Position numbers and translations under genes: made by a program. Below are positions 270 through 29,799 of a stretch of 39,786 bases of DNA, one piece after another. Source of the stretch: Betaproteobacteria bacterium (lineage in GTDB: Bacteria > Pseudomonadota > Gammaproteobacteria > Burkholderiales > Rhodocyclaceae); NCBI GenBank assembly GCA_016208425.1, contig JACQYA010000174.1, positions 1-39,786 of the forward strand, given 5' to 3'. Position 1 is the stretch's first letter. Every line of letters begins with the position of its first letter. The notes under the pieces were generated by a model that saw only the letters and a list, made by a program, of their open reading frames with translations, was not told the DNA's origin and searched no databases.

Positions 270-344
<75 letters not shown>

Positions 345-8176: not shown

Positions 8177-8256
8177 GTTGCAGCCGCCTTGTTTGTCGGT
8201 CAATGGTAGGGAGACGGAACAGGCTGGCGATTTATTCCATCGCGGGCGAACTGCGC

Positions 8257-8286
8257 AAAAAAAAACGGAGCCGTTGCCGGCTCCGT
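8257..8286 (-). terminator. Rho-independent terminator after soxYZ
   Basis: A 9-bp perfect stem ACGGAGCCG/CGGCTCCGT (8265-8273 with 8278-8286) has a TTGC loop and, on the minus strand, a run of eight or more T residues. It lies 28 bases beyond the soxZ stop and before the ECF sigma gene, so soxYZ and the sigma-to-soxX run are probably separate transcripts. Confidence 0.92.
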
Positions 8287-8313
8287 TTGTGCTTGTTTAG
8301 CGCCCGCAACTAT

Positions 8314-8625: not shown

Positions 8626-8662
8626 GTCGCTTGCTCCTGATTTCTAAATTGTCGCTTGTCCG

Positions 8663-10155: not shown

Positions 10156-10260
10156 CCCGCGCAGACGGGTTTGATTCCGCTTGGCGAACGGGCGCGCTAC
10201 GTATACATTTGGAACTGTTTGTCGCTCGATCATGAGCTTAAAAAAGGCGAGGATGTGTAG

Positions 10261-11163: not shown

Positions 11164-11220
11164 AGCAAGATGTTGGCGTTGTACCAAGGACGTTTTTTCC
11201 AATTGCAAGAGGAGACGAAA

Positions 11221-11799: not shown

Positions 11800-11812
11800 G
11801 GGAGACATCGAC

Positions 11813-13102: not shown

Positions 13103-13129
13103 TCGGTTCGGGTCGTTTGATCGCCGGAA

Positions 13130-13159
13130 ATGGCTCCGCTACGCGGAGCCATTTTTTTG
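13130..13159 (+). terminator. Rho-independent terminator after fccB
   Basis: Stem ATGGCTCCG/CGGAGCCAT (13130-13138 with 13144-13152), loop CTACG, then a run of seven T. It lies 28 bases after the fccB stop and ends the cytochrome/flavocytochrome transcript. Confidence 0.93.
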
Positions 13160-13191
13160 CCGTTTTGAAGAATGGCGACAAAAATATAGGC

Positions 13192-13218
13192 AAAAAAAAC
13201 CCCGCACGGTTGGCGGGG
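13192..13218 (-). terminator. Rho-independent terminator after rpmG
   Basis: On the minus strand a stem CCCCGC/GCGGGG (13213-13218 with 13200-13205) is followed by eight T residues (complement of 13192-13199). It lies 28 bases beyond the rpmG stop and ends the rpmB-rpmG transcript. Confidence 0.9.
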
Positions 13219-13246
13219 AATTTTTTCCAGAAACTGGGGCGACGAT

Positions 13247-13402
13247 CTACTTCAGTTTCATTTCCTTGTAAGCTACATGCTTGCGAGCCTTGGGATCGTA
13301 CTTCTTGATCTCCATTTTTTCGGGCATTGTTTTCTTGTTCTTGGTGGTGGTATAGAAGTGCCCCGTACCGGCGGTCGACTCAAGCTTGATCTTTTCACGC
13401 AT
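13247..13402 (-). CDS. rpmG: 50S ribosomal protein L33
   Basis: A 51-residue ribosomal protein, [20 protein letters not shown] to [11 protein letters not shown], of the cysteine-free (zinc-independent) L33 type. It lies 15 bases downstream of rpmB in the usual bacterial pair, with GGAGCGA before the ATG and a terminator after the stop. Confidence 0.97.
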
Positions 13403-13417
13403 GGCTGTCGCTCCTTA

Positions 13418-13651
13418 TCAGATCTCGCCGCGTGCGCGCAAATCGGCGAGCACGACGTCGATGCCATTTTTGTCGATGACGCGCAGACCGGCGTTGGATA
13501 CGCGCAGACGCACCCAGTGGTTTTCGCTCTCAACCCAGAAACGGCGATACTGCAAATTCGGCAGGAAGCGACGCTTCGTTCTATTGTTGGCATGGGAAAC
13601 ATTGTTCCCAACCATCGGACCCTTACCCGTTACTTGGCAGACACGCGCCAT
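13418..13651 (-). CDS. rpmB: 50S ribosomal protein L28
   Basis: A 77-residue large-subunit protein with the standard start [20 protein letters not shown] and the [12 protein letters not shown] block that identify L28. It is the first gene of the rpmB-rpmG pair; its start faces the dynamin-like gene across about 195 bases that should hold both promoters. Confidence 0.98.
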
Positions 13652-13846
13652 GATTGTTGCTCCAATTGATCTTGGGGAGAAAGCCGGTCATTTTAGCCTA
13701 AAGTCGACCGGAACCTCAAGTATTTTTTGTCGTCCTGTTTTGTCGCCCGCCATTTTTTCTCGCTTGTCGATCCGTTCCACGGATTTATCGTTGTGATAAA
13801 GTCAACCGCATTCGGATATTCGACCCGTTGGAACCAGGACTCAGCC

Positions 13847-15820: not shown

Positions 15821-15834
15821 CGGCGGCGCTTTTC
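15809..15834 (+). terminator. Terminator overlapping the dynamin-like gene stop codon
   Basis: A 9-bp perfect stem AGCGCCGCC/GGCGGCGCT (15809-15817 with 15822-15830) has the TGA stop codon in its four-base loop and is followed by TTTTC. The short T-tract makes it moderate in predicted strength. It also separates this gene from the convergent ferredoxin gene. Confidence 0.7.
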
Positions 15835-15850
15835 AGGAAAAAAGTACCGC

Positions 15851-16129
<279 letters not shown>

Positions 16130-16630
16130 TCATTGAAATTTTTCGGATATTCTCTTGGCAAGCCGCTCGCAGATCGCCGGCTGGATAAACTTGCCGACAT
16201 CGCCACCAAGAATGGCAATCTCGCGAACCATCGTCGCCGAGATAAACATGTACTGTTCGCCCGGCGTCAGAAACACCGTCTCTACATCGGGATAAAGATT
16301 CCTGTTCATTCCGGCCATCTGAAATTCATACTCAAAATCGGACGCCGCCCGCAAACCACGCAGGATAATTTTTGCCCCTCTGGCATGCAGAAAATCCATC
16401 AGCAGCCCATCGAAACCACAGATCTCGACATTAGGGTACGGCGCCATAACTTCCCTGGCAATTTCGATGCGCTCGCCAAATTCAAAGAACGGCCGTTTCG
16501 ACCGGCTTTCGGCAATCGCCACGATGACGTGATCGAAAATACCTGCTGCCCGGCGCGCCAAATCCTCGTGACCCCGGGTCATCGGATCGAAAGTGCCCGG
16601 ATAGATGGCTATCCGCTTGTTGAGGGTCAA
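16130..16630 (-). CDS. coaD: Phosphopantetheine adenylyltransferase
   Basis: A 166-residue enzyme that transfers AMP from ATP to 4'-phosphopantetheine, the fourth step of coenzyme A synthesis. The nucleotidyltransferase motif [20 protein letters not shown] lies at the N-terminus (H20). The [15 protein letters not shown] block (about 90-104) and the [10 protein letters not shown] motif (about 127-136) are diagnostic of CoaD. It lies 13 bases after rsmD and 18 before fdx, so the three are co-transcribed. Confidence 0.98.
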
Positions 16631-16643
16631 TCGGTTTGCCTCG

Positions 16644-17174
16644 CTACTTATCCCGTTGCATCAAATGATAGTGTACTTGCCCCGCCTTGCCGTGGCGCGC
16701 GATCCGCCATTCGCCGCAGGATTCCAGCATGCGCTCCGCCTCGGCGTAGATCACCGCATCGCCGGTGAGTATCCTCGGCAGCAGCGGCGCCAAGCGGTCT
16801 ATCCACCCCTGGTTGAAAGGCGGGTCGAGAAACAGCACATCGAAGCGCAGCGCGGTCAGGGAGGCGAATTTTACCGCATCCGAACAAACAATCTCCAGAC
16901 GTTCGCTGGCGCCAAGCATTTTGTGGTTTTCTTCGAGCGCGGCCAAGACTCCCCGCGCGCTTTCGACCAGCACCACCTTGGCGGCTCCCCGCGATGCGGC
17001 CTCGAAGCCCAGCGCACCGCTACCGGCAAAAAGATCGAGACAGGACAGACCGTTCAGGTCTTGCCCCAGCCAGTTAAACAATGTCTCGCGGACGCGGCCG
17101 GGCGTTGGGCGCAAGCCGGCGGCGTCGGGAAAGCGCAACAGCCGGCGACGCCACTCTCCGCCAACGATACGCAC
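16644..17174 (-). CDS. rsmD: 16S rRNA (guanine966-N2)-methyltransferase
   Basis: A 176-residue SAM-dependent methyltransferase that modifies G966 of 16S rRNA. It starts [13 protein letters not shown]; the conserved [19 protein letters not shown] motif [18 protein letters not shown] (about 47-64) and catalytic FLDPPFNQG (about 115-123) are all in place. It lies 13 bases downstream of the smaller M16 peptidase gene and directly upstream of coaD, a conserved arrangement. Confidence 0.97.
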
Positions 17175-17187
17175 CGAGTTCAGGTTG

Positions 17188-18486
17188 CTACTCCGCCCCG
17201 CCGACGATCACCGTAACCAGATGCGCGGGTTTTACGTGGCGCGAAAATGCTGACTTGATGTCCGTTGCCGTGACCTTCTCTACGTTCTCGGCATAGCGGT
17301 CGAGATAGTCCAGCGGCAGGCCGTAAAAGCCGATCAGCGAAAGGTTGTCGAGGATCTTTTTGTTGCTGTCCAGGCGCAAAGGAAAGCTTCCGACCAGATT
17401 CTGTTTGGCGTCGCCCAGTTCGCTCTCGGTCGGCCCCTCCGCGAGAAAACCCGCCAGAACTTCCCGCGCTACCTTCAGCGCGTCGTCGGCCTGCGCCTTC
17501 TTGGTTTGCAGGCTGACCTGGAAAGGCCCGAGCTGTGCCATCGGCTGGAAGTAGCTATGTACGCTGTATGCGAAGCCGCGCTTGTCGCGCACTTCCTTCA
17601 TCAGGCGCGAGACAAAGCCGCCTCCGCCTAGCGAGTAGTTGCCGACCAGCAGCGGGAAAAAATCCGGGTCGCCGCGCTTGATCGCCGGCAAGCCCAACAT
17701 CAAATGGGCTTGCGCCGCCGGGTGGGGAATCCGCTGCTCGGCCGCCTCCGGCAATGCGGGTTCGCGCGGGCCGGGAGCGCCGGAACCCACGGGCAAACCG
17801 GCGGTCAGGCGCTGCGCGATTTTCTCGGCCTCGGCGCGCGACAGGTCGCCGACCATCGCCACGGAAGCGCGTTGTGCCGTGTAGTGCGTCCGGTAGAAAA
17901 GCGCCAGATCGTCGCGGGTCAATGCCGACAGCGATTCTGGCGTCGATTTCTGGCCGTAGGCATGCCCGCCGTACATCGCCGCCCAGAACGCGCGGCCGGC
18001 AATCGTTTCGGGTCGGGTCAACGCTTCCTTGAGGCCGGCCAGCGTGCGCGCTCTTTCGCGCGCAAACACATCGGCCGGAAATTGCGGGCCGACCAGCACG
18101 GAACGCAGTATGTCGAGAGCGGGGTCTCGTTTGTCGGCGGCCGAAAGCGTGCGCAGCGCGAGCGACGCACGATCTGTTTCAGCGGCGCCGCCAAGCTTGG
18201 CGCCCAGGTCGGCGAGACGGCTGGCAATCTGCGTCTCGTCCATGCCTTTTGCGCCCAAATCCAGCAACTGGTGGGTCAGCGATGCCAGCCCGGCTTTCTC
18301 GGGCTTCTCGTATGCGCTACCGGCCTCGAAGTCGACCTGTACATCGAGGATCGGCAAAGCGTGGTTTTCGACAAAAAACACGCGCGCGCCCGAAGGCGCG
18401 ACCCAGTGTTCGATCTTCGGGCCGGCTTCGGCCCACAGCGTGACCAGACTAAGGCAAAAGCCGCAAAGCAGCGAAACGGGTTTCAT
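17188..18486 (-). CDS. M16-family peptidase-like protein, likely non-catalytic partner
   Basis: A 432-residue insulinase-family (M16) protein with a signal peptide at about 1-21 (cleavage after LWAEA). The HxxEH zinc motif is missing: the equivalent position reads SLTHQLLDLGAKG, lacking the pair of catalytic residues. Substrate-handling blocks of the family remain, such as GGGGFVSRLMKEVRDKRGFAYS (here split as GGGGFVSRLMKE and VRDKRGFAYS). In bacterial M16 heterodimers one subunit keeps the zinc site and the other an R/Y substrate pair. The R-Y pair is seen here (RDKRGFAY), so this is probably the partner of the gene 22 bases upstream. Confidence 0.9.
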   Translation of the reverse strand: MKPVSLLCGFCLSLVTLWAEAGPKIEHWVAPSGARVFFVENHALPILDVQVDFEAGSAYEKPEKAGLASLTHQLLDLGAKGMDETQIASRLADLGAKLGGAAETDRASLALRTLSAADKRDPALDILRSVLVGPQFPADVFARERARTLAGLKEALTRPETIAGRAFWAAMYGGHAYGQKSTPESLSALTRDDLALFYRTHYTAQRASVAMVGDLSRAEAEKIAQRLTAGLPVGSGAPGPREPALPEAAEQRIPHPAAQAHLMLGLPAIKRGDPDFFPLLVGNYSLGGGGFVSRLMKEVRDKRGFAYSVHSYFQPMAQLGPFQVSLQTKKAQADDALKVAREVLAGFLAEGPTESELGDAKQNLVGSFPLRLDSNKKILDNLSLIGFYGLPLDYLDRYAENVEKVTATDIKSAFSRHVKPAHLVTVIVGGAE

Positions 18487-18507
18487 CGGCGATCTCTCAA
18501 CAACGGA

Positions 18508-19893
18508 TTAATGGCGGGGAGCGCCGCCGGCGCGCGGAAGGGCGGGTTGTGCCAGGGTTTGCGGGTCGAGTTCGGCGACGGTCAAAGCGTCGTCGCGGAA
18601 ATACTTGCGGACGACCGCCTGAACCTGCCCGGCGCCCACCGCCTGCAACTTTTCGATCATGCGCGCGGCCAGGGTGTGCGAAATACCGGCCGACTCCATT
18701 TGCCCGATTTCCATCGCCTGCGCAAACATCGAGTCGAGCTTGTAGATCTGGCCGGCAACCAGTTGCGCCTTGGCGCGCGCCAGCTCATCGGCGGTCACGC
18801 CATCCTTCTCGATACGCGCCAGCTCGGCGCGAAAACCGGCTTCCAGATCGGCTCTTGTCTTGCCCTCGCTGGGCGATCCTTGCAGATAAAACATGCCCGG
18901 GCCGCGCGCGGTCGAGTCGTAGCCGGAACCGGCCGTCACCGCCAGACGCTGTTCGCGCACCAGGTTTTTTGAGAAGCGCGCCGCGTCGTGGCCGTCCAGG
19001 ATGGCGGCCAGCATCTCAAGCGCGTAAGGATCGACATCGTTCTCCACGTCGCGGATTACCGGCACCTTGTATGCCATCAGCAGCACCGGAAGATCGGCCG
19101 GCGCCTTGACCGTCAGCCGGCGGATGCCGGCCTGCGCCGGTTCGACCTGAGGCTTGCGCTCGGGCAGCGCGCGGGAAGGGAGCGCGCCGTAGGTTTTTTC
19201 CGCCAGCCCGAACACCTGCTCGTGTTCGACATCGCCGACGATCACCGCATAGGCGTTGTTCGGCACATACCAGCGCTCGTACCAGTCGCGCGCGTCCCGC
19301 ACGGTCATGTTTTCCAAGTCGTTCATCCAGCCGATGATGGGCGTGCGATAGGGGTGAGCCTGGAAGGCAACGGCGCTCATCTGCTCGAAAAGCTTCGACT
19401 GCGCCTGGTCGTCGGTGCGCAGGCGGCGCTCTTCCATCACGACCTTGATCTCCTGCGCGAATTCGCCGGCGTCCAGCGTGAGGTGGCGCATGCGGTCGGC
19501 TTCGAGCCGCATCATCTCTTCGAGCTTCTGCTTCGGCACCTGCTGAAAATACGCGGTGTAATCGTGGCTCGTGAACGCGTTGTCGCGCCCGCCGGCCGCC
19601 GCGACGCGGCGGTTGAATTCGCCTGGTCCGGCGGTTGGCGTGCCCTTGAACATCATGTGTTCGAGCACATGCGCGACGCCGGTCGTGCCGTTCGTCTCGT
19701 CGACGCTGCCGGCGCGATACCAGACCATGTGCACCGCCGTCGGCGCCCGGTGGTCTTCCTTGACAATCACCCGCAGGCCGTTGCTCAACCGATGCTCGAA
19801 AGGGTTGGCCAGCACCCCGGCCGATGACGAAAGGATTGACGATACAAGTAAAAGGCGGGTGACCCGTCTCGCAAACTGTCTTGTGATGCGCAT
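18508..19893 (-). CDS. M16-family zinc metallopeptidase, catalytic subunit
   Basis: A 461-residue periplasmic peptidase. The signal peptide runs to about residue 29 (SSSAGVLA-NP). The inverted zinc motif is intact in AHVLEHMMFKGT (HxxEH, about 78-82), with the downstream glutamate region EIKVVMEERRLRTDDQ. It is the first gene of the minus-strand cluster and is separated by 22 bases from its inactive paralogue, with which it should form a heterodimeric clamp degrading short peptides. The substrate is unknown. It is divergent from ftsY. Confidence 0.93.
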   Translation of the reverse strand: MRITRQFARRVTRLLLVSSILSSSAGVLANPFEHRLSNGLRVIVKEDHRAPTAVHMVWYRAGSVDETNGTTGVAHVLEHMMFKGTPTAGPGEFNRRVAAAGGRDNAFTSHDYTAYFQQVPKQKLEEMMRLEADRMRHLTLDAGEFAQEIKVVMEERRLRTDDQAQSKLFEQMSAVAFQAHPYRTPIIGWMNDLENMTVRDARDWYERWYVPNNAYAVIVGDVEHEQVFGLAEKTYGALPSRALPERKPQVEPAQAGIRRLTVKAPADLPVLLMAYKVPVIRDVENDVDPYALEMLAAILDGHDAARFSKNLVREQRLAVTAGSGYDSTARGPGMFYLQGSPSEGKTRADLEAGFRAELARIEKDGVTADELARAKAQLVAGQIYKLDSMFAQAMEIGQMESAGISHTLAARMIEKLQAVGAGQVQAVVRKYFRDDALTVAELDPQTLAQPALPRAGGAPRH

Positions 19894-19944
19894 GGTCGGG
19901 AATCGCTTCTGGTAAAATTTGCCGATGTTTTGGCGTAGAGAACT

Positions 19945-19973
19945 TTGACGTAAAAAACACTCTGCGCTGGAAT
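19945..19973 (+). promoter_or_regulatory. Possible sigma-70 promoter of ftsYEX
   Basis: TTGACG (19945-19950), a 17-base spacer, then TGGAAT (19968-19973), located about 55 bases before ftsY in the 135-base divergent region. The -35 is good and the -10 modest. Confidence 0.4.
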
Positions 19974-20028
19974 CTTACCATCGACCTCCCTCCCGGATGC
20001 TTCTCAAAGGCTCAGATAAGGAAGTGCC

Positions 20029-21027
20029 ATGTTTGGTTTCCTGAAAAAATCTCCCGCCGAGCCTGATTCGCCGCTGAATGTGGCTGCTGCCGAAGCGCCC
20101 GCTCCGGCGCAAGCGCAGACATTATCCTGGCGGGATCGCCTGAAGGCCGGTCTGGCACGCACGCGCGCGAATTTCGGCGGAAAGCTGAAAACGGTCTTTT
20201 CGCGCGGCAAGGTCGACGACGAGTTGCTGGAAGACCTTGAAACGCTGCTCCTGACCAGCGATGTCGGCATGGAAGCCACCCGGCATTTGTTGCACGAACT
20301 CGGAACGCGCGCCAAGCACGGCCGGCTCGAAACGCCGGAAGCGATCCAGCAGGCGCTGGCCGACGCGCTCTACGAACTGTTGCAACCGCTCGAAAAAGCG
20401 CTCGATGTCCATACGCACCGGCCGTTCATCATCATGATCGCCGGCGTCAACGGTGCCGGGAAAACCACCTCGATCGGCAAGCTGGCCAAGTATTTTCAGG
20501 CGCAAGGGAAATCCGTGCTGCTCGCCGCCGGCGATACTTTCCGCGCCGCCGCGCGCGAACAGTTGCAGATCTGGGGCGAGCGCAACGGCGTGACCGTCAT
20601 CGCGCAGGAATCGGGCGACCCGGCGGCGGTCATTTTCGACGCCGTCGCGGCGGCCAAGGCGCGCGGCATCGACATCGTGCTCGCCGATACCGCCGGCCGC
20701 CTGCCGACGCAACTGAACCTGATGGAAGAGATCGCCAAGGTGCGCCGCGTCATCCAGAAAGCCGACCCTTCCGGGCCGCACGAAACGCTGCTCGTGCTCG
20801 ACGCTAACATCGGGCAGAACGCCCTGCAGCAGGTCAAGGCCTTCGACCGGGCGATCGAGGTCAGCGGCCTGGTGCTGACCAAGCTCGACGGCACGGCCAA
20901 AGGCGGCATCGTCGCCGCCATCGCGCGCCAATGCCCGAAGCCGATACGCTTCATCGGCGTCGGGGAAGGCATCGACGATTTGCGCCCGTTCGACGCGCGC
21001 GACTTTGTGGGCGCGCTGTTCGAATGA
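20029..21027 (+). CDS. ftsY: Signal recognition particle receptor FtsY
   Basis: A 332-residue SRP-type GTPase that docks ribosome-nascent chain complexes at the membrane. A short Ala/Pro-rich N-terminal region (about 1-45) precedes the N domain. The G domain holds P-loop GVNGAGKTTSIGKLA (about 140-154), DTFRAAAREQL, DTAGRLPTQLNLMEE and the TKLDGTAKGG motif near 285-294. The acidic A domain common in enterobacterial FtsY is nearly absent, as is usual for shorter FtsYs. Its stop overlaps the ftsE start (ATGA). Confidence 0.98.
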   Translation: MFGFLKKSPAEPDSPLNVAAAEAPAPAQAQTLSWRDRLKAGLARTRANFGGKLKTVFSRGKVDDELLEDLETLLLTSDVGMEATRHLLHELGTRAKHGRLETPEAIQQALADALYELLQPLEKALDVHTHRPFIIMIAGVNGAGKTTSIGKLAKYFQAQGKSVLLAAGDTFRAAAREQLQIWGERNGVTVIAQESGDPAAVIFDAVAAAKARGIDIVLADTAGRLPTQLNLMEEIAKVRRVIQKADPSGPHETLLVLDANIGQNALQQVKAFDRAIEVSGLVLTKLDGTAKGGIVAAIARQCPKPIRFIGVGEGIDDLRPFDARDFVGALFE

Positions 21028-21725
21028 TCGCGGCCAGCGCCCTCGGCAAGCGCTATTCCGAAGGCCTCGAAGCGCTGAAAGATGTCAGCTTCGAGATCGG
21101 CGACGGGGAGATGGTCTTCATTACCGGCCATTCCGGGGCCGGGAAGTCGACGCTGTTCAAACTGATCGCCGCCATCGAGCGCCCCAGCTCGGGCAGCATC
21201 GTCGTCAACGGCCAGAATCTCGCCGCGTTGAGCAGGGGCGCCGTCCCCTATCTGCGCCGCAACTTCGGCCTGATTTTTCAGGATCAAAAGCTGCTTTTCG
21301 ACCGCAACGTGCTGGATAACGTGCTGCTGCCGCTGTCCATCGTCGGCCAGACGGGCAAGGATGCCATCCGCCGCGCGCGCGCGGCGCTCGATAAGGTGGG
21401 GCTGCTGGCGCGCGAAAGAGCAACACCGGTCGCGCTCTCCGGCGGGGAACAACAGCGCCTCGCCATCGCCCGCGCCGTCGTCAACCGGCCCGCCGTCCTG
21501 CTCGCCGACGAGCCGACCGCCAATCTCGATAGCGGCTCGGCGGCCGACATCCTGGAAATCTTCCGGGCATTTCACCAAGTCGGCGTCACCGTCATCATTT
21601 CGACCCACGACCCGCAGTGGATGGCGCGTTTGTCGCCGCGCATCCTGTGTCTGGAAAAAGGACAAATAAAAGGGCAAATGCGCGGCACGGCGCGCGACCG
21701 GGCCGATGGCGGGGGTGCGCGGTGA
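21024..21725 (+). CDS. ftsE: Cell division ATP-binding protein FtsE
   Basis: A 233-residue ABC ATPase working with FtsX to control septal peptidoglycan hydrolases. The Walker A motif GHSGAGKSTLFKL lies at about 36-48. The Q-loop is in LIFQDQKLLFDRNVLDN, the signature is ALSGGEQQRLAIARA, and Walker B is VLLADEPTANLD. ATG 21024 overlaps the ftsY stop by four bases. The C-terminal tail (about 20 residues, GQMRGTARDRADGGGAR) extends beyond the usual FtsE end. Confidence 0.97.
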   Translation: MIAASALGKRYSEGLEALKDVSFEIGDGEMVFITGHSGAGKSTLFKLIAAIERPSSGSIVVNGQNLAALSRGAVPYLRRNFGLIFQDQKLLFDRNVLDNVLLPLSIVGQTGKDAIRRARAALDKVGLLARERATPVALSGGEQQRLAIARAVVNRPAVLLADEPTANLDSGSAADILEIFRAFHQVGVTVIISTHDPQWMARLSPRILCLEKGQIKGQMRGTARDRADGGGAR

Positions 21726-22621
21726 ACGCTTGGCTGGCGCAACACCTTGCCGCCTTGCGCGACGCGCTGCGCCGGTTGGCCGCTTCGCCGCTGAACAGCG
21801 CGCTTTCGCTGCTCGTCATCGGGATCGCCCTGACCTTGCCGACCGCCGGCTGGGTGGTCATCGAGAACCTTCACGAAGCGACGCGCAGCGCGTCCGGAAT
21901 CCAGCAGATCAGCGTCTTCATGGCGGCGGACGCCGGCAAACGCGACATCGGCGAGGTCGAATCGCGCTTGCGCGGCGCAAAAATCGGCACCTGGCGCTTC
22001 GTGTCCAGGGATGAGGCGCTCAAGCGCATGCAATCGCTGGAGGGGATGACAGAAGTTGTCGCCAGCTTGCCGCGAAACCCGCTGCCGGACGCCTTCGTCG
22101 TCGAACCGGCAGATGCGCGGCCAGAGTCGCTCGAAGTGCTGGCACAGACCTTTTCGGGGTGGCCCAAGGTTGCCCACGTGCAGCTCGATTCGGCCTGGGT
22201 CAAGCGTTTCGATGCCCTGCTGCGCATCGGCAAGCGTGTGGTCGCTTTGCTTGCTCTGCTTTTTGCCGGCGCGCTGGTCGCCGTCACCTTCAACACGATA
22301 CGCCTGCAAATTCTTGCCCAAGCCGCAGAGATCGAGGTCAGCAAGCTGATCGGTGCGACCGACGCCTTCATCCGTCGGCCGTTCCAGTATTACGGCGCCC
22401 TGCAAGGAGCTCTGGGCGGCTTGCTCGCCGCCGTTCTCGTCGCTGCGGGCGGGTATTTTCTCGCCGCCCCGGTGGCCGAGCTGGCCGCCCTTTATGGCGG
22501 TAATTTCGCGCTGCGCGGTTTGTCGCCGGGCGATACGGCTGTCCTGACAGCCGCCGGTGCGGCGCTCGGCTGGCTCGGCGCGCAGATTTCGGTGTCGATT
22601 CACCTGCATCAAATCGGGTGA
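21722..22621 (+). CDS. ftsX: Cell division protein FtsX
   Basis: A 299-residue permease-like partner of FtsE. The first transmembrane helix lies at about 27-48 (LNSALSLLVIGIALTLPTAG). An extracellular domain follows to about 165 and includes VASLPRNPLPDAFVV, a characteristic FtsX motif. The last three helices include LLALLFAGALVAVTFNTIRL and the EIEVSKLIGATDAFIRRPF loop. GTG 21722 is chosen because it overlaps the ftsE stop (GTGA); an earlier in-frame ATG would overlap ftsE by more than 100 bases. Confidence 0.95.
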   Translation: MNAWLAQHLAALRDALRRLAASPLNSALSLLVIGIALTLPTAGWVVIENLHEATRSASGIQQISVFMAADAGKRDIGEVESRLRGAKIGTWRFVSRDEALKRMQSLEGMTEVVASLPRNPLPDAFVVEPADARPESLEVLAQTFSGWPKVAHVQLDSAWVKRFDALLRIGKRVVALLALLFAGALVAVTFNTIRLQILAQAAEIEVSKLIGATDAFIRRPFQYYGALQGALGGLLAAVLVAAGGYFLAAPVAELAALYGGNFALRGLSPGDTAVLTAAGAALGWLGAQISVSIHLHQIG

Positions 22622-22724
22622 CCTGCCCCGTGCCGGCAACAGGCAAATCGGCGCGGCGAGCGGTGCGTTACAATGCGCGCTTCTGCGCCCGTATGCGCGC
22701 GGAAAAACGTGCAAGGTGCCGCAC

Positions 22725-22900
22725 GCCGGGTTTGCAAAAATCTCGGCGGCGGTTAAACGGGAAACGGGTGCGCTTCCGAAAGAAGCCATGCCCGTGCTGC
22801 CCCCGCAACGGTAAGCGAGTGATGTAGAAGGCGTGTCTTATGCCACTGGGCGAAAACCTGGGAAGGCGACACCACCAGACTCGCGAGCCCGGATACCGGC
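22725..22900 (+). ncRNA. Cobalamin (B12) riboswitch
   Basis: A cobalamin aptamer upstream of cobO and the exported CobN. GCCGG (22725-22729) and CCGGC (22896-22900) can form the closing stem P1. Between them lie GGGAAACGGGTGC, CTGCCCCCGCAACGGTAA, GCCACTGG (22842-22849) and GGGAAGGCGAC (22860-22870). The B12-box core GAGCCCGGATACCGGCC (22885-22901) matches the known box at nearly every position. In Gram-negative bacteria these switches usually repress translation or transcription of B12 and cobalt genes when cobalamin is plentiful. Confidence 0.95.
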
Positions 22901-22905
22901 CTTCG

Positions 22906-23062
22906 CACACTTTGGCGGAAGTGCTGCGGGGAAGCGGTCACGGAGTGCGGGGCGCAGCGCGAAAAACGCTGGCGCTTGCCCCTTTCGGATCGCCTCCCGG
23001 CAGCATCTCCATTATCAGTTCGCCGACTTGCGGGGACGCCCGTCGGCAACCGGGAGAGATCC
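22906..23062 (+). promoter_or_regulatory. Leader between riboswitch aptamer and first ORF (expression platform)
   Basis: About 160 bases without a convincing gene. A possible hairpin CCCG/CGGG around 23039-23054 borders the GGGAGAG ribosome binding site (23052-23058) of the 42-codon ORF and could hide it. This is a guess; no clear T-run terminator is visible, so translational control is the likelier mode. Confidence 0.35.
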
Positions 23063-23191
23063 ATGCATCCGCACAAGGCGCACGCGCCCATCGTACCCAT
23101 GGCGGCAACCGCCGCGACGGCTATCACCGCGCGGCTTCCCGATACGCGCTCCCCGCCATCGTCCCCCGCCCACCGAGCGCACAAACCGTGA
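23063..23191 (+). CDS. Short His-containing ORF translationally coupled to cobO
   Basis: A 42-residue ORF that I do not recognise. It starts MHPHKAHAPIVP, with three histidines in the first seven residues, then a small Ala/Thr-rich patch, a Ser/Pro-rich stretch, and ends AHRAHKP with two more histidines. GGGAGAG sits four bases before the ATG. It is the first reading frame with a good ribosome binding site after the B12 riboswitch, and its stop overlaps the cobO GTG start (GTGA). It may be a leader that couples cobO translation to the riboswitch, or a tiny metal-binding protein. It could also be chance. Confidence 0.4.
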   Translation: MHPHKAHAPIVPMAATAATAITARLPDTRSPPSSPAHRAHKP

Positions 23192-23811
23192 GCGGGGATC
23201 GGGGCAAGAGGGAGCGCCACAACGCCCGCATGGGGCGAAAAAAGGCGATCATCGACGGAAGGATCGCCGCCGCGCGGGAAGAGCGCGGCGTGCTCGTAAT
23301 CAACACCGGTAACGGCAAAGGCAAATCGACCGCCGCCTTCGGACTGATCGCCCGCGCCCTCGGCCACGGCATGAAGGTGGCGGTGATCCAGTTCGTCAAA
23401 GGGCGTACCGATACCGGCGAAGAAAGCTTTTTCCGGAGGATCGCCGAAACGGTGCCCGGCTACCTGAGCTGGCACGTCTCGGGCGAGGGCTTTACCTGGG
23501 AAACGCAAGACGGTTCGCGCGACGCGGCCGCCGCGCAAACCGCTTGGCAACTCGCCCGCAGCTACCTCGCCGACCCCGGAACCGGTCTCGTGGTGCTCGA
23601 CGAAATGACCTATGCCTTCAAGTATGGCTGGCTCGATCTCGCGCAAGTGCTCGATGCCGTCGCCGCCCGCCCGACCATGCAACACGTTGTCGTTACCGGG
23701 CGCGGCGCACCCGGAGCGCTGATCGAAGCGGCCGATACGGTGACCGAAATGAGCCCGGTCAAGCACGCCTTCAAGACCGGCGTGAAGGCGATGCCGGGCG
23801 TCGAGTTCTAG
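23188..23811 (+). CDS. cobO: Cob(I)yrinic acid a,c-diamide adenosyltransferase
   Basis: A 207-residue CobA/CobO/BtuR-type corrinoid adenosyltransferase, which attaches the upper adenosyl ligand in B12 synthesis or salvage. After a basic N-terminal helix (ARMGRKKAIIDGRIAA), the P-loop NTGNGKGKSTAAFG lies at about 39-52. VIQFVKGRTDTGEESFF, VVLDEMTYAFKYGWLD and VVTGRGAPGALIEAADTVTE are family blocks. The GTG start is chosen from the family's N-terminus and the four-base overlap with the short ORF upstream; no strong ribosome binding site of its own is seen. The exported CobN starts six bases after its stop. Confidence 0.95.
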   Translation: MSGDRGKRERHNARMGRKKAIIDGRIAAAREERGVLVINTGNGKGKSTAAFGLIARALGHGMKVAVIQFVKGRTDTGEESFFRRIAETVPGYLSWHVSGEGFTWETQDGSRDAAAAQTAWQLARSYLADPGTGLVVLDEMTYAFKYGWLDLAQVLDAVAARPTMQHVVVTGRGAPGALIEAADTVTEMSPVKHAFKTGVKAMPGVEF

Positions 23812-23817: not shown

Positions 23818-26800
23818 ATGGCGGAGTTTTCCCGCTCCCCGCCGCTACTGGCGGCGTTTGTCGGCGCCCTGCTGCTCGCCGCGACCGCACATGCCGCCAC
23901 GCTGTTCGGGGTCGTGACCGAACGCGCCGCGCCGGTCGCCGCCGATGCCGCACGCCTGCATCTACTGACCTATCCCGGCGACCGTATCGTCCTGCGCACG
24001 CCCGGCCAGCTGATGGCGGCACCCGAAAGGCAGGTCGTGCGCTGGCTGGCCGACGCCGACGCCGTGCTGGCGGTTGCGGTGTTCGGCGACGGCGCGCGCC
24101 GCTTGGGCGAACTGGCGCCGCGCCACGCGCGCAAGGCCGGGCGGGTGCTCGCCTTCAACGGCATGCAGGAACTGGCCGCGCTGACCCGGTACGACGCAGC
24201 AACGATGGCCGACTTTCCGGCCGAAACCTCGCGCCAGCTCGCCGCCGAAGTACCGACCGCAACCGCGCTCGCCGCCGCCCGCGCGCATCCGGTGGTACGC
24301 CGCTGGCTGGCCGCGCGGCAGACCTGGCAAGCCGGCGGCGCGGCGAATACGGCGCAGCTCTTCGACCACCTGCTGCGCCCGGAACTCATTGAGCTGCCGG
24401 CGCCGCAGCCCGAACCCGCGCTGCGCGTGCGGGTCGGCGAACGCGAATGGTCGGACGCCGCCGCGTGGTCCAGCAACGCGCTGCCGGCTGCGCTGTTGGC
24501 CAAACCGGCACTCGTCGTCCTCGACCTGTCGACTTCCGACCCGCAACCGGCCGGCGCGCTGTGCGGCGAGGCGCGCCGCCAGCAACTGCCCTGCGTGGCG
24601 ATCTTCGCGCGCTGGGGCGCAACGTCGCGCGAAGTCGTCGAACGCCTGCCCGAACTGATCGCGCCGGCCAGGCCCGCCGCGCTGGTCGTTCTGCAGGACT
24701 TCGTGGTCGGCGCCGCCGAAGGGCGCGAAGCCACGACCGCCGCCTTGAACAAGCTCGACGTCCCGGTGTTCAAGGCGATCCGCCTGACCGACCGCAGCGC
24801 GATGCAGTGGCGGCTGTCGCCCGATGGCCTGCCGTCCGACTCGGTGCAGTACCGCGTCGCGCTGCCCGAACTGCAGGGCGCCGGCCAGCCGGTCGTGATC
24901 GCCGCCGCCGGCCGACCGCTCGTCGACACGCGCACCGGCATCGAGATCAAGCGCCCGGAAATCCTCAATGCCGAAGTCGCCCGCCTCGTCTCGCGCGCCG
25001 TTCGCTGGCAGCGCCTGGCGACCAAGGCGAACCGCGACAAGCGCGTCGCCATCGTCTATTACAACCACCCCCCCGGCCGCCAGAACATCGGCGCCGACAA
25101 CCTCAACGTACCGGCCTCGCTGTTCGACACGCTGCACGCGCTGCAGGCCGCCGGCTACAACGTCGGCGATCCCGACAAACTGCCGGCTACCCCGCAAGCG
25201 CTGCTCGAACAAATCATGGCGCACGGCGTAAATTTGCCCGAAGACCGGCAGGCGCTGCGCGAGCTGGCGCTCGACGTGAATGGCGTCGGGCTCAAGGACT
25301 ACGCGCGCTGGTTCGCGCGGCTGCCGGCGCGCGTGCGCGGCGAGATGAGCGAAGGCCCGCTCGGCCGCCTGCACGCCGAAGTGCTCGAGGCCGAAGCCGC
25401 CGGCGAGCGCGCGCTCGGCCGGCGCAAGGCCGAGTCGGCGCTCAAGGAACTGCACCACCTGGTCTCCGGCGCCGACCATCCACAGCGGCTCGAGGCGATG
25501 CGCCTGCTAGACCGGCTGGCCGCCGGCTACGCCGCGTGCCTGGACAACAAGGCGAGCCAGCCGTGCGGCAAGCAGGCAGCGACCAAAGACCGCCTGAACA
25601 CGCTCAGAATCGAGGGCCTGCGCGGCTGGGGCGCGCCGCCCGGCAGGGTGATGGTCGAGGGCGAACGCCTGCTGGTGCCGGGGCTGACCTTCGGCAACGT
25701 CTTCATCGGCCCGCAGCCGCCGCGCGGCTGGGAGGTCGACGAGGAGCTGCTGCACGCCAACACCAGCATCACGCCGCCGCACCAGTACCTGGCCTTCTAC
25801 CACTGGTTGCGCGACGGCTTCCGCGCCGACGCGGTAGTCCATTTCGGCCGCCACTCGACCTACGAATTCCTGCCCGGCAAGGCCGTCGGCCTCGCCGCCG
25901 ACGACTACCCGAGCCTCGTCGCGTCCGACCTGCCGGGAATCTACCCGTACATCGTCGACGGCGTCGGCGAGGGCATCCAGGCCAAGCGGCGCGGCCTCGC
26001 GGTGATGGTCGACCACCTGACGCCGCCGATCGCCACGACGCCGCTCTACGACCAGCTCCTGACCCTGCGCCAGGTCGTCGAGAGCTTCGAGAGCGCGTCG
26101 TCCGACAGCCTGCGCACGCAGGCGGCGCGCGCCATGCGCGAGCAGGTCGACGCGCTGCAGCTGCGCGCCGAACTCGAGGCGTCGATGGCCGACGTGCTGC
26201 AGGTGCGCGGCATCGGCATCGACGACGCCGACGATGAACTGCTCGCGCACGAGGTCGGCCACTATCTGACCAAGCTGCAAGAGAAGTTCATGCCCTACGG
26301 CCTGCACGTCTTCGGACGGCCGTGGTCGGCCGGAAACCTCGACCTGATGCTGGCGTCGATGCGCGGTGGCGCCGCGCGCCCGGCGCTCGACCCGGCCGTC
26401 GTCGACAACCTCAAGCGCTCGCCTCGCCTCGAAATGGCCGGACTGCTCAATGCGCTGAACGGCGGCTTCGTCGCGCCGGGCAAGGGCAACGACCCGCTGC
26501 GCTCGCCCGAGGCGCTACCGACCGGCCGCAACTTCCACGCCGTCGACGGCGACATCCTGCCGACGCGGCTCGGCTACGGCCTCGGCAACAATCTCGCGGC
26601 CAAGGCGCTGAAAAAGACCGCTTTGGCAAAAGGCGACGACTCGGGCAGCGAAGCCGTCATCCTCTGGGCGTCCGACGCGGTGCGCGACGAGGGCGTGATG
26701 GTCGCCTTCACGCTCGCGCTGATGCGCGCCGAGCCGGTGTGGAACGCGCGCGGCATCGTCACCGACGTTCGCCTGCTGCCATCGACCGGCACGCCTCGGC

Positions 26801-28050
26801 GCGACGTGCTGGTCACCACCTCGGGACTTTTCCGCGACCTCTACCCCAACCTGCTCAAGCTGATCGACCGCGCCGGCCGCCTCGCACTCGCCGCCAGCGC
26901 GGCGACCCTGGCCGAGGCGCAACCGGAACTCAAGGAAGCGCTCGCCGAAGCGCTGGCGCCGATTGCCAACGCTGCCAATGCGCAGTGGGGCCACGAGCCG
27001 CTCGCCGCCAACCGCTTGGCCGAACGCTGGCAGGCGCGCGTAACGGCGCTGCTCGCGCAGGGCAAGCCGCCCGCCGAAGCCGGCAGGGAAGCCGCCTGGC
27101 GCATCTTCGGCGACGCGCCGGGCGCTTACGGCGCCGGCGTCAACCGCCTGACCGAGCGCTCGGGCGCCTGGCGCGAACGCGGCGAAATCGGCCGCGCGTA
27201 TCTCAACCGCCTCGGCCATGCGTACGCGCTCGACAGCGGCGGCGAGGCGGCGCACGCCGCTTTCGACAACGCGCTGCGCGACGTGACGCGCGCCTATCAC
27301 GGCCGCGCCAGCCACCTCTACGGCCTGCTCGACAACAACGACGCCTTCGACTACCTCGGCGGCCTGTCGCTGGCCGTCGAATCGCTGACCGGTCGCCGCC
27401 CGGACAGCCTGATCCTGCAGCACGCCGAAGCCGGTCAGGCGAGCGTCGAGCCGCTCACCTCTGCGCTGCTCGGCGAACTGCGCGGACGCTACCTCAACCC
27501 GGCGTGGATCAAGCCGCTGATGGCGCACGACTACGCCGGCGCGCGCACGATGGGGCAGGAATTCCTCGAAAACCTGTGGGGCTGGCAGGTCACCCGCCCG
27601 GACCTGGTGCAGAGCTGGGCGTGGGACGAGGTCAAGCGCGTCTATTTCGACGACGGCCATCAGCTCGGCCTGCCTCGGTTTCTCGGCGAGGGCGCCAACG
27701 CGCACGTCAAGGCGCACATGCTGGCGATCATGATGGTCGCCGCGCAGAAGAACTTCTGGCAGGCCGACGCGGCAACGATCCGCCGCCTCGGCGGCGAACT
27801 CGCCCGCCTGGTCGCCAAGAACGGCCTGCCGGGCAGCGGCCACACCGCGCCGAACCACCCGATGTGGGCGTGGCTCGCGCCACAGCTCGACGCCGCCGAA
27901 GCCGCGGCGCTCGGCGTGACGCTGGCCCGCGCGCGCGGTGAAAACGGCGCGACAGCCTACCCGGGCGCGCCGGCAAAAGCAGCCAGCCTGGCCGGCCTCG
28001 CGCTCGGCTGGCGCGATAGCGCTGCCCCCATTTTCCGGAGAAAACCATGA
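23818..28050 (+). CDS. CobN/HmuS-type chelatase with N-terminal signal peptide
   Basis: A 1410-residue member of the CobN/BchH large chelatase family. Unlike cytosolic CobN it begins with an export signal (hydrophobic LLAAFVGALLLAATAHA, cleavage near residue 27), so it should act in the periplasm. Family blocks include YYNHPPGRQNIGADNLN (about 417), VVHFGRHSTYEFLPGK (about 673-688) with the histidine and glutamate region typical of CobN, and PTGRNFHAVDGD (about 900). CobN normally inserts cobalt with CobS and CobT; neither is present. The next two genes encode an ExbB-like channel and a DUF2149 protein, as with HmuS in the hmu haem operon. It may insert or remove a metal from an imported corrinoid or haem. 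The substrate is unknown. Confidence 0.88.
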   Translation: MAEFSRSPPLLAAFVGALLLAATAHAATLFGVVTERAAPVAADAARLHLLTYPGDRIVLRTPGQLMAAPERQVVRWLADADAVLAVAVFGDGARRLGELAPRHARKAGRVLAFNGMQELAALTRYDAATMADFPAETSRQLAAEVPTATALAAARAHPVVRRWLAARQTWQAGGAANTAQLFDHLLRPELIELPAPQPEPALRVRVGEREWSDAAAWSSNALPAALLAKPALVVLDLSTSDPQPAGALCGEARRQQLPCVAIFARWGATSREVVERLPELIAPARPAALVVLQDFVVGAAEGREATTAALNKLDVPVFKAIRLTDRSAMQWRLSPDGLPSDSVQYRVALPELQGAGQPVVIAAAGRPLVDTRTGIEIKRPEILNAEVARLVSRAVRWQRLATKANRDKRVAIVYYNHPPGRQNIGADNLNVPASLFDTLHALQAAGYNVGDPDKLPATPQALLEQIMAHGVNLPEDRQALRELALDVNGVGLKDYARWFARLPARVRGEMSEGPLGRLHAEVLEAEAAGERALGRRKAESALKELHHLVSGADHPQRLEAMRLLDRLAAGYAACLDNKASQPCGKQAATKDRLNTLRIEGLRGWGAPPGRVMVEGERLLVPGLTFGNVFIGPQPPRGWEVDEELLHANTSITPPHQYLAFYHWLRDGFRADAVVHFGRHSTYEFLPGKAVGLAADDYPSLVASDLPGIYPYIVDGVGEGIQAKRRGLAVMVDHLTPPIATTPLYDQLLTLRQVVESFESASSDSLRTQAARAMREQVDALQLRAELEASMADVLQVRGIGIDDADDELLAHEVGHYLTKLQEKFMPYGLHVFGRPWSAGNLDLMLASMRGGAARPALDPAVVDNLKRSPRLEMAGLLNALNGGFVAPGKGNDPLRSPEALPTGRNFHAVDGDILPTRLGYGLGNNLAAKALKKTALAKGDDSGSEAVILWASDAVRDEGVMVAFTLALMRAEPVWNARGIVTDVRLLPSTGTPRRDVLVTTSGLFRDLYPNLLKLIDRAGRLALAASAATLAEAQPELKEALAEALAPIANAANAQWGHEPLAANRLAERWQARVTALLAQGKPPAEAGREAAWRIFGDAPGAYGAGVNRLTERSGAWRERGEIGRAYLNRLGHAYALDSGGEAAHAAFDNALRDVTRAYHGRASHLYGLLDNNDAFDYLGGLSLAVESLTGRRPDSLILQHAEAGQASVEPLTSALLGELRGRYLNPAWIKPLMAHDYAGARTMGQEFLENLWGWQVTRPDLVQSWAWDEVKRVYFDDGHQLGLPRFLGEGANAHVKAHMLAIMMVAAQKNFWQADAATIRRLGGELARLVAKNGLPGSGHTAPNHPMWAWLAPQLDAAEAAALGVTLARARGENGATAYPGAPAKAASLAGLALGWRDSAAPIFRRKP

Positions 28051-28481
28051 CTGAACTCGCCTCCTTCGACTGGCTGCACGAGGCCGTCAACTGGCTGCTC
28101 GCCCCGGCGCTCGCCGCACTGCTCTTCGGCTGCGCGGTCGCCGCGATTGAAAGCGGCCTGGCGCTCGGCGAACGCCTGGTCGGCCTCAAGCGCCTGCGCG
28201 CCGGCGGCGACCCGCTGCGCGTGCAGGCGATCGCGCGCCGCCGGCTGGAGCGCGCCGACCTCCTGGCGCGCATCCCGCCGATGCTCGGCCTGATGGCCAC
28301 CATCATCCCGCTCGGGCCCGGCCTCGCCGCGCTCGGCCACGGCGACCCGGGCAAGCTCGCCGCCGCCGTCACCGTCGCCTTCGACGCGACCGTCCTCGGC
28401 CTCGTCGCCGGCATCGTCGGCCTCGTCGTCGGCAAGCTGCGCCGGCGCTGGTACGAGGAACTGCTGGAGAGCATGGAATGA
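28047..28481 (+). CDS. MotA/TolQ/ExbB-type proton channel family protein
   Basis: A 144-residue inner-membrane protein with three predicted helices (about 15-38, 78-98 and 104-130). The second and third carry the ExbB/TolQ signature: PPMLGLMATIIPLGPGLAAL, then AAAVTVAFDATVLGLVAGI. It is much shorter than ExbB or TolQ and resembles HmuU-type proteins. The ATG overlaps the chelatase stop (ATGA), a sign of tight coupling. With the DUF2149 protein it probably forms a proton-driven motor serving the exported chelatase. Confidence 0.85.
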   Translation: MTELASFDWLHEAVNWLLAPALAALLFGCAVAAIESGLALGERLVGLKRLRAGGDPLRVQAIARRRLERADLLARIPPMLGLMATIIPLGPGLAALGHGDPGKLAAAVTVAFDATVLGLVAGIVGLVVGKLRRRWYEELLESME

Positions 28482-28900
28482 CGCACAGCCTTCCCCCCGA
28501 CCCCGTTCCCGAGGAGGGTGGTGATCGCGGTTCGGCCGCCAGTGCGGCTTCCGTTTCATTGAGCGCCGCCGGCCACGCGCCGCGCAAGCGGCTGCGCCTC
28601 TACTCGAAGCTCGACGCGCGTTTCGACCTTAGTTACGCAAATTCCGATGAAGACCCGCGCGCCAGCCTGGTGAACCTGGTCGACGTGATGCTCGTCTTCG
28701 CCTGCGGCCTGCTCGCGGCGCTGGCCGCCGGCAGCCAGAGTCCGCCGCAAGCGCCCAAGCCGGTCGAAAAGGGGCAGGAAATCGAACGCCCGGCCGCCGG
28801 CGCGACGCGGGGCGGAACCGGCTACGACCGCGTCGGCGAGGTTTTCCGCGACCCGAAGACGGGCAAGCTGGTACTCGTCGAGCCGGCGGGCGGAAAATAA
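28478..28900 (+). CDS. DUF2149 (ExbD-like) membrane protein
   Basis: A 140-residue protein overlapping the channel gene by four bases (ATGA). Residues 1-60 are cytosolic, Pro/Ser/Ala-rich and then basic. A single helix at about 63-84 (SLVNLVDVMLVFACGLLAAL) contains D69, at the place where ExbD and TolR carry their proton-conducting aspartate. The periplasmic tail of about 55 residues ends GEVFRDPKTGKLVLVEP, a DUF2149 hallmark. The same family is HmuT in the Bacteroidetes hmu operon. Its probable role is stator or energy transducer for the exported CobN-like protein. Confidence 0.85.
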   Translation: MTHSLPPDPVPEEGGDRGSAASAASVSLSAAGHAPRKRLRLYSKLDARFDLSYANSDEDPRASLVNLVDVMLVFACGLLAALAAGSQSPPQAPKPVEKGQEIERPAAGATRGGTGYDRVGEVFRDPKTGKLVLVEPAGGK

Positions 28901-29121: not shown

Positions 29122-29799
29122 ATGCCCCATCGAAATCACCGTTATAGCGACGCCGAAATCGCTGCGCTTTGGCGCGTCCTGCGCGAACGCCGCGACATGC
29201 GTCACTTTGTCTCCGATCAGTTGCCCGAGGGTTTGATCGAGCGGCTGGTGCTGGCGGCGCATCTGGCGCCGTCGGTCGGCTTCATGCAACCGTGGCGTTT
29301 CATCCGCATCCGGGAACAGGCGCAACGCGAACGCATCCACGGCCTGGTAGACGACGAACGGCGGCGCACCGCGGCCGCGCTGCCCTCGCGCAACGAAGAA
29401 TTTCTCGGTGTAAAAATCGAAGGCATCCGCGAATGCGCCGAAGTGCTGGTCGTCGCCCTGATGCCGGGGCGCGAGCAACACATCGTCGGCCGGCGCACGT
29501 TGCCCGAGATGGATGTCGCCTCGGTCGGTTGCGCCATCCAGAACATGTGGTTGGCCGCACGCGCCGAAGGCGTAGGGCTCGGCTGGGTTTCCTTCTTCGA
29601 TCCGCAAACCCTCGGCGAACTGCTCCGCCTGCCGGAAGGCGCCCATCCGCTAGGCATCCTGTGCATCGGCCATGTACGGGAATTTTACCCGCGGCCGATG
29701 TTTGAAGATGCCGGCTGGGGCAAGCGCCTCGAACTGGCGCAGGTGTTGTTCGAGAATCTCTGGCCCGAGGATGCGGGGCGCACCCCTTGCACCTACTGA
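29122..29799 (+). CDS. bluB: 5,6-dimethylbenzimidazole synthase
   Basis: A 225-residue flavoenzyme of the nitroreductase fold that cleaves FMN with oxygen to make the lower ligand of B12. The RRDMRHF block (about 23-29), APSVGFMQPWRFI (about 50-62), GIRECAEVLVVAL and GLGWVSFFDP are BluB features. ATG 29122 is chosen because AAAGG lies six bases upstream; another ATG 15 bases earlier lacks a site. It lies 221 bases after the DUF2149 gene, a gap with no visible gene, and may be in the same B12-controlled transcript. Confidence 0.95.
   Translation: MPHRNHRYSDAEIAALWRVLRERRDMRHFVSDQLPEGLIERLVLAAHLAPSVGFMQPWRFIRIREQAQRERIHGLVDDERRRTAAALPSRNEEFLGVKIEGIRECAEVLVVALMPGREQHIVGRRTLPEMDVASVGCAIQNMWLAARAEGVGLGWVSFFDPQTLGELLRLPEGAHPLGILCIGHVREFYPRPMFEDAGWGKRLELAQVLFENLWPEDAGRTPCTY

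Follow-up and report, generated by a model that had tools for sequence, protein, structure and literature searches.

Class I chelatases are familiar as cytosolic enzymes driven by ATP, and for exported members of the class we know of no agreed energy source and of no known substrate outside heme. Here, we analyze an exported CobN-like protein that is encoded together with an ExbB-like channel protein and a DUF2149 protein in a 39,786-nucleotide stretch of DNA (the window; contig JACQYA010000174.1, or C151) from the genome of a betaproteobacterium (GCA_016208425.1, or G000; 3.54 Mb, 199 contigs, 96% complete). We refer to the exported protein and its clade as CobN*. The trio lies behind a B12 riboswitch, and its best explanation overall, to which we give a little under an even chance, is that it works in the periplasm on scavenged corrinoids at B12 shortage, inserting or exchanging a metal. 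The general part of that explanation, namely, that the trio is exported, motor coupled, and corrinoid directed, is probable.

The closest described system is HmuS-HmuU-HmuV of Bacteroidota, in which an exported class I chelatase relative with the catalytic residue His538 likewise has ExbB-like and DUF2149 partners and a TonB-dependent receptor in the operon. The hmuYRSTUV operon is reported to be iron responsive (PMC10434189), and HmuS is reported to be defined by Met79, His254, and a Met-rich insertion (PMC12583661). Unlike HmuS, CobN* is found with a B12 riboswitch and corrinoid genes rather than with iron control and HmuY, and it forms a separate clade. An earlier reading of the window from its letters alone (the sequence-only reading) had equated the DUF2149 protein with HmuT, a label that we correct, as the DUF2149 gene of hmuYRSTUV is hmuV (PMC10434189). 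The B. fragilis counterparts are named BtuS1 and BtuS2, and BtuS, from Rodionov 2003, is cited as a third kind of CobN-related protein (PMC6460266).

A second likeness, drawn by gene annotations, is to PA1922-PA1925 of the Pseudomonas aeruginosa Zur regulon, which comprise genes for a TonB receptor, a CobN-like protein, an ExbD-annotated protein, and hypothetical proteins. Those genes, however, are under zinc control: they are Zur controlled, induced by zinc starvation, and 45- to 147-fold up in a znuA mutant (PMC4542158). The CobN-CobS-CobT and CobN-ChlID enzymes have a homologous large subunit, and CobN* sits in many operons among cobO, cbiA, and cbiP like the aerobic step. CobN requires CobS, CobT, and ATP, and the substrate of CobNST is hydrogenobyrinic acid a,c-diamide (PMC7689651), whereas CobN* is exported, falls under the CobN cut-offs, and occurs in hosts that mostly lack a marker of corrin ring synthesis. 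Finally, TonB-ExbB-ExbD and MotAB-type proton motors share with the trio a member of the ExbB family (by Pfam) and a one-helix partner with a membrane aspartate, but DUF2149 is short, its model has no confident ExbD-like periplasmic domain, and a relative of chelatases, not TonB, would be the client. A B12-riboswitch-controlled CobN-ExbB-DUF2149 trio is not described among the literature matches listed, and Rodionov et al. 2003 (JBC) may hold part of such a description. Judged by sequence, the trio is real and conserved, and it is a new variant within the exported CobN/ExbB/DUF2149 systems.

An exported chelatase relative and its membrane partners

CobN* appears to be exported. Its N-terminus, MAEFSRSPPLLAAFVGALLLAATAHA/ATLF, combines a hydrophobic core with an AHA-A site (at the slash) and, by eye and by hydropathy, has the look of a classical export signal. 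A hydrophobic segment is aligned at the same position in 81 of 82 CobN* rows and in none of four cytosolic CobN/ChlH rows, so the signal peptide of the sequence-only reading holds across the clade by hydropathy; the one row without it, L060, may owe this to a wrongly called start or frame. With two proteins cut by contig ends (L087 and L096) left out, 70 of 80 CobN* rows show signs of a membrane helix at the C-terminus, but neither the window protein nor that of Marinobacter does. Cys249 and Cys259 are both present in 80 of 82 rows, Cys574 and Cys583 are both present or both absent in all 82, and the number of cysteines is even in 67 of 79 mature proteins, a count that also leaves out L060. 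The four cytosolic rows have 4, 9, 10, and 16 cysteines. As a sequence pattern, the paired cysteines of CobN* support placement in an oxidizing compartment.

CobN* belongs neither to CobN nor to HmuS by the features tested (among them cut-offs, export, insertion, and His254), which corrects the CobN-type label of the sequence-only reading. It scored under the curated CobN cut-offs (TIGR02257, 515 versus 822; NF004645, 597 versus 1619; NF004644, 563 versus 1248) and under those of ChlH as well (BchH, 548 versus 829). An ordinary CobN of the aerobic pathway is ruled out by these scores, by export, and by the missing ring marker. Against PDB, the CobN* profile found HmuS nearest (464 bits), then CobN (432) and ChlH (426). 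The Met-rich insertion of HmuS is missing, as the aligned stretches are 301 residues apart in HmuS (626-926) and 101 apart in the window protein (764-864), where the stretch at about 764-864 has 5 Met. The heme ligand His254 of HmuS is replaced by Glu301, with Glu in 71 of 82 CobN* rows and His in none of the 81 rows shown, an equivalence that depends on how the less conserved head is aligned. A quick 42-row tree placed CobN* in one clade (Shimodaira-Hasegawa-like approximate likelihood ratio test, SH-aLRT, 100) apart from CobN and from the clade of canonical CobN-ExbB-DUF2149 trios (99); the deeper order is unsure, as is the placement of the HmuS row, which was built from fragments. An HmuS orthologue is ruled out by the missing insertion, the replaced His254, and the separate clade.

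The predicted fold is that of a class I chelatase. The head and neck were modeled at a predicted local distance difference test (pLDDT) of 90, and class I chelatases top the Foldseek list, in which E-values favor CobN (7c6o, 2e-12) and ChlH (2e-11) over HmuS (9d26, 2e-10), while the best TM-score is with HmuS (0.59; CobN, 0.50; ChlH, 0.34-0.35). VIA-align gave ChlH a Z of 14.5 (15.0 Å, 304 aligned), CobN 12.7 (6.0 Å, 314), and HmuS 12.1 (4.0 Å, 318). His679, the equivalent of the catalytic HmuS His538, is present in 82 of 82 CobN* rows and Glu683 in 81 of 82. Flanking the histidine, Arg678 (82 of 82) and Ser680 (81 of 82) occur in 0 of 14 other rows.

The two partners have features that would suit a proton-driven pair. 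Both Pfam matches exceed the gathering score, which bears out the ExbB/TolQ-like and DUF2149 identities first read from the letters. The ExbB-like protein has hydrophobic stretches at 13-41, 78-97, and 103-132, and its T85 and T115 are invariant in 49 of 49 aligned rows (the window and 48 of 74 extracted proteins). The membrane aspartate of DUF2149 pointed out in the sequence-only reading, D69, lies in the membrane helix and is likewise invariant in 54 of 54 rows (the window and 53 of 68). An invariant T85/T115 and D69 would suit a proton path. Profiles of the two proteins matched in PDB only MotA, at an E of 0.0017, and a chance entry at 0.66.

Conservation of the trio and of its riboswitch

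CobN* is, by profile score, a sharply bounded subfamily: among 150 genomes of the order, four scored 2475-2847 bits and any other match at most 299. Scanning the genomes of named species gave 269 relatives, the best 80 of which were analyzed; they come from beta- and gammaproteobacteria (Massilia, Duganella, Zoogloea, Dechloromonas, Methylobacillus, Pseudomonas, Azotobacter, Halomonadaceae, and others), Nitrospirota, Nitrospinota, and Myxococcota. The sequence-only reading had counted absence of the partners from relatives as evidence against itself. ExbB adjoins CobN* in 79 of the 80 loci and DUF2149 in 78, so that both are next to it in 78, and the exceptions, L087 and L096, stop at contig ends. 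An AAA+ partner (CobST or ChlID) was not found in the 80 loci.

Control by B12 is similarly widespread. A local riboswitch model was built from 21 sequences (that of the window, four from three fetched relatives, that on contig C74 of the source genome, and a single one from each of 15 among the 80 loci), and it placed a B12 riboswitch in front of CobN* in 71 of 80 loci, either less than 800 bp upstream (44) or at the head of a codirectional operon (27). Four of the 44 are weak (L097, L118, L123, and L129; E of 9.5e-5 to 0.042). In the remaining nine, the locus lies near a contig edge (L093, L105, L110, and L111), the switch is on the opposite strand (L104), or it is farther away (L053, L114, L116, and L122). 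Nine control loci with a canonical DUF2149 gene (L006 and L024-L031, L030 being without a CobN match) gave 0 riboswitch matches. An Rfam scan of 11 loci gave no match because of their shortness (about 3.2 kb each). Homology and partners in common with HmuS-HmuU-HmuV could mean that the trio acts on heme or another porphyrin and stands in B12 operons by chance. The riboswitch in 71 of 80 loci, the change of His254 to Glu301, and the missing Met-rich insertion speak against a heme substrate, which we regard as highly improbable.

The neighbors of CobN* also point to corrinoids. In the 80 loci we found a TonB-dependent receptor 44 times, cobO 29, cbiA 28, bluB 23, btuF 19, cobD 18, btuC 16, cbiB 15, cbiP 13, and a 189-amino-acid importer-like protein 12 times, one copy of which matches PDB entry 8c7p, "Cobalamin ABC transporter," at 8.9e-56. 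The survey of the trio with riboswitches and TonB-dependent receptors that the sequence-only reading had called for thus returned 71 and 44 of 80 loci, respectively. In Methylophilaceae the typical order is riboswitch, btuB, 189-amino-acid protein, cobO, cbiA, CobN*, ExbB, and DUF2149, often with bluB, and in Azonexaceae it is btuB, btuC, btuD, cobO, CobN*, ExbB, and DUF2149. Many loci of Massilia, Duganella, Zoogloea, and Pseudomonas have the riboswitch and trio alone.

Adjacency to btuB and importer genes in many loci would also suit a CobN* that performs no chelation and instead handles periplasmic corrinoids, with ExbB/DUF2149 energizing their hand-off to an inner-membrane importer or the removal of axial ligands before import. 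A role in heme transport has been proposed for HmuTUV of P. gingivalis (PMC13227078), and an importer was seen in the stretch read in just 28 of 80 loci (btuC in 16, the 189-amino-acid protein in 12), the search being confined to these stretches. Those same 28 loci, however, have an importer beside the trio, the second B12 riboswitch of the source genome heads btuB-btuC-btuD on C74, and the conserved catalytic His and Glu would be needless for plain binding. We consider hand-off without chelation unlikely. Inner-membrane B12 transport by the trio was weakened as a candidate by the importer on C74 and is kept as a rival.

Some loci depart from the usual setting. In Zoogloea (L067 and L070), the CobN* trio is preceded, at a distance of about 7 kb, by a trio of canonical type and is followed by corrin-ring genes. 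In Cognatazoarcus halotolerans (L071, 15900-18000), cobL-like (weak) and cobM-like (clearer) matches stand by the trio, and CbiC was not found in that genome. In L030 (G058), the 19-kb stretch read has ExbB-like and DUF2149 genes (6495-7258) but no match to CobN.

Probable corrinoid salvage and the direction of the reaction

CbiA (CobB), CobN, CobO, and CbiP (CobQ) catalyze consecutive steps of the late-cobalt route from hydrogenobyrinate. We searched for pathway genes in 50 of the 80 genomes, picked from records without a metagenome-assembled-genome mark, and the ring-synthesis marker CbiC was absent in 44, genomes whose completeness is unstated. All 50 had a GATase_3 match of CbiP grade (179-208 bits), and 46 of them had another of CbiA grade (69-126 bits), the two names being given by score grade. 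Of the 146 genomes in the order sample that lack CobN*, 27 had a match of at least 170 bits and 35 one of at least 135 bits, a rough background, as the two samples differ in taxonomy. CobN* would thus occupy, to judge from gene content, the cobalt-insertion slot in organisms mostly unable to make the ring. A Spirosoma plasmid has the order cobyrinate a,c-diamide synthase, CobN, "putative cobaltochelatase," cobyric acid synthase, aminotransferase, and CbiB; it is likely a cytosolic counterpart, with the "putative cobaltochelatase" taken as ChlID by name.

Judged by its genes, the source organism seems to salvage corrinoids and to import them in the ordinary way. CbiC is absent from its genome (G000) and from G025, G072, and G116. 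CobT, which the sequence-only reading had called missing, had no match in the 96% complete genome, CobS had no search of its own, and ChlID (TIGR02442) gave only weak AAA matches (29.0 and 19.9 bits versus a cut-off of 779).

How the trio might work can be outlined as follows. A B12 riboswitch turns genes on at low B12, and the trio would then form an inner-membrane and periplasmic machine for scavenged corrinoids. A corrinoid brought in by BtuB would be bound by CobN*, and the ExbB/DUF2149 pair would use proton motive force to drive a conformational cycle of CobN*, replacing the ATP-driven CobST/ChlID motor, one that could not work in the periplasm. Cobalt would be put into a metal-free corrinoid, or a wrong metal swapped, and the product would be imported via BtuCD or a BtuM-like importer and finished by CbiA, CobO, CbiP, and nucleotide-loop enzymes. 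The periplasmic machine of the sequence-only reading persists here in an exported class I chelatase relative with partners in 78 of 80 loci, B12-riboswitch control, and a setting of corrinoid salvage, shorn of its HmuT label and CobN membership.

The direction of the reaction is harder to decide. CobN* might instead be an HmuS-like de-chelatase that takes cobalt or another metal off periplasmic corrinoids or metal complexes, for cobalt acquisition or recycling. In PDB, the CobN* profile matches HmuS best, and HmuS is a reported heme de-chelatase (PMC12583661); canonical trios sit with metal-uptake genes (the Zur-controlled PA1922-PA1925, nikR, hyp genes, and CbiMQO-type genes on pGLOV01). Released cobalt, however, would hardly be usable for B12, because CbiC was absent in 44 of 50 genomes and in the source genome, G025, G072, and G116, and cobalt is no substitute for B12 in such cells. 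Moreover, the 80 loci show corrinoid genes and no match to CbiM, CbiQ, CbtA, or CbtB (NiCoT/HupE-type permeases were outside the reference set), and a de-chelatase expressed at low B12 would ruin a scarce cofactor. We hold metal removal to be quite unlikely. Insertion or exchange is favored over removal because cobalt alone is no cure for lack of B12 in a ring-less cell, and we rate that direction as nearly, but not quite, an even bet.

Several findings weigh against metal insertion or against the trio as its machine. CbiC is present in 6 of the 50 CobN* genomes. The source genome has no full-strength CbiA or CbiP (best GATase_3, 32.7 bits), which may be a chance gap in an assembly of its completeness and contig number. 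Genes of CbiP/CbiA grade also occur without CobN*, as three genomes from the family of the source organism show (G020, G067, and G111), and Cupriavidus has a ring-less late operon "from cobyrinic acid" (PMC2864759); CbiA and CbiP alone therefore do not imply a metal-free substrate. Because of that operon and the CbiP-grade genes in kin of the source organism without CobN*, we read CobN* as adding something to an existing salvage route, so far as gene content can tell. Azotobacter chroococcum has CobN* (L126), and a plasmid of another strain bears a CobN-AAA-VWA set, with which cobalt insertion by CobN* would be redundant there. On a plasmid of Marinobacter sp. M3C (L032), the 27-kb stretch read contains CobN* but no match to ExbB or DUF2149. 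The DUF2149 model is poor, as a prediction, with only the membrane helix at good confidence and a mean pLDDT of 65. Asp1175, at the position of HmuS His1209, is found in all 80 CobN* rows with a letter there, in 3 of 3 CobN rows, and in 7 of 9 canonical trio rows (without L024, L025, and L030), with His in HmuS and ChlH; because canonical rows share it, it is no mark of corrin use on sequence grounds. Finally, HmuS, the characterized exported homologue, removes metal, as reported with the recombinant protein (PMC12583661), and the motor is perhaps needless for the chemistry for that reason.

Trios of the canonical type occur with genes for other metals. In L132 (Azospirillum brasilense Sp7 plasmid, 11614-23572), nikR and a gene for a TonB-dependent siderophore receptor close the stretch with a canonical trio, and a B12-riboswitch match lies just behind the trio (16481-16666). 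In L134 (Runella slithyformis plasmid, 1-13821), a canonical trio and a TonB receptor stand among hypB, hypF, a hypC-type gene, hypD, and hypE, with a weak NicO-like protein, which hints at a nickel link. On pGLOV01, a canonical trio with TonB receptors and riboswitches lies beside ring-synthesis and CbiMQO-type cobalt-transport genes. Together with the Zur-controlled PA1922-PA1925 and the iron-responsive hmuYRSTUV, these form a pattern, drawn from a few loci, that suggests a single type of machine adapted to several metals.

Taken furthest, the insertion reading is of a chelatase driven by proton motive force, in which ExbB/DUF2149 in place of the CobST/ChlID motor would let B12 auxotrophs load cobalt into scavenged metal-free or mismetallated corrinoids, and of wider CobN-ExbB-DUF2149 trios as similarly driven machines for tetrapyrroles or metal ligands, each under the sensor of its own metal (heme/Fe, Zn, Ni, and Co/B12). 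We put this forward tentatively, as possible rather than probable. A widespread CobN* clade behind B12 riboswitches, in hosts that mostly lack the ring marker yet keep the steps flanking cobalt insertion, makes salvage of cobalt-free or wrongly metallated corrinoids by proton motive force testable. If true, B12 ecology would gain a nutrient class and ExbB-type motors a new task. Genes of this kind annotated as "cobaltochelatase CobN," such as that of the Marinobacter plasmid, should not count as de novo B12 synthesis.

Layout of the window and the second trio

The reading frames, ATGA overlaps, riboswitch, and cobO-bluB flanks are as the sequence-only reading had them, by coordinates, Pfam, and Rfam (Table 1). 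Six bases separate the end of cobO from the start of CobN*, and the ATGA overlaps fall at 28047-28050 (CobN* stop, ExbB-like start) and 28478-28481 (ExbB-like stop, DUF2149 start). The start of cobO is inferred to be the methionine of MGRKK in a frame open from 22840, and that of bluB is inferred in a frame open from 28993. The riboswitch scored 143 bits with the local model R1, to whose training set the window belonged. A terminator-like site or a promoter/terminator consensus was looked for in 22500-23260 and not found.

Table 1. Features of the trio locus in the window
Feature	Position	Strand	Support
Cobalamin riboswitch aptamer	22700..22918	+	RF00174, 87.2 bits, E 2.4e-20 (gathering score 31.5)
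cobO, corrinoid adenosyltransferase	23230..23811	+	PF02572, 208 bits; NF004637, 262.8 vs cut-off 185
CobN*, exported CobN-like class I chelatase subunit, 1410 aa (amino acids)	23818..28050	+	Pfam CobN-Mg_chel, 812.5 bits
ExbB/TolQ/MotA-like channel protein, 144 aa	28047..28481	+	MotA_ExbB PF01618, 34.8 bits vs 22.9
DUF2149 (HmuV-like) protein, 140 aa, single membrane helix	28478..28900	+	PF09919, 36.4 bits vs 27.1
bluB, 5,6-dimethylbenzimidazole synthase	29122..29799	+	TIGR02476, 241 bits vs cut-off 150

The source genome has two CobN-family genes, both with an export-type N-terminus; a second, signal-less cobN, for which the sequence-only reading had proposed a search, was not among them. The other gene belongs to a canonical CobN-ExbB-DUF2149 trio on contig C189 (L006, 9176-16676, minus strand) with a TonB-dependent receptor just upstream. 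No B12 riboswitch was found in the 20 kb read there, and Zur-like boxes were no more frequent than expected by chance. Near this trio there are also a further TonB receptor and a TonB gene. Upstream of the tonB-like gene, at a distance of about 320 bases, stands a Fur-box-like site (4225-4243) with 3 mismatches, matched by none in shuffles.

Elsewhere, the cluster of the Marinobacter plasmid (L032, 5038-18319) runs riboswitch-btuB-btuFCD-cbiA-CobN*-cobO-cbiP-bluB. The window itself carries three tRNA genes at 273-608 on the minus strand.

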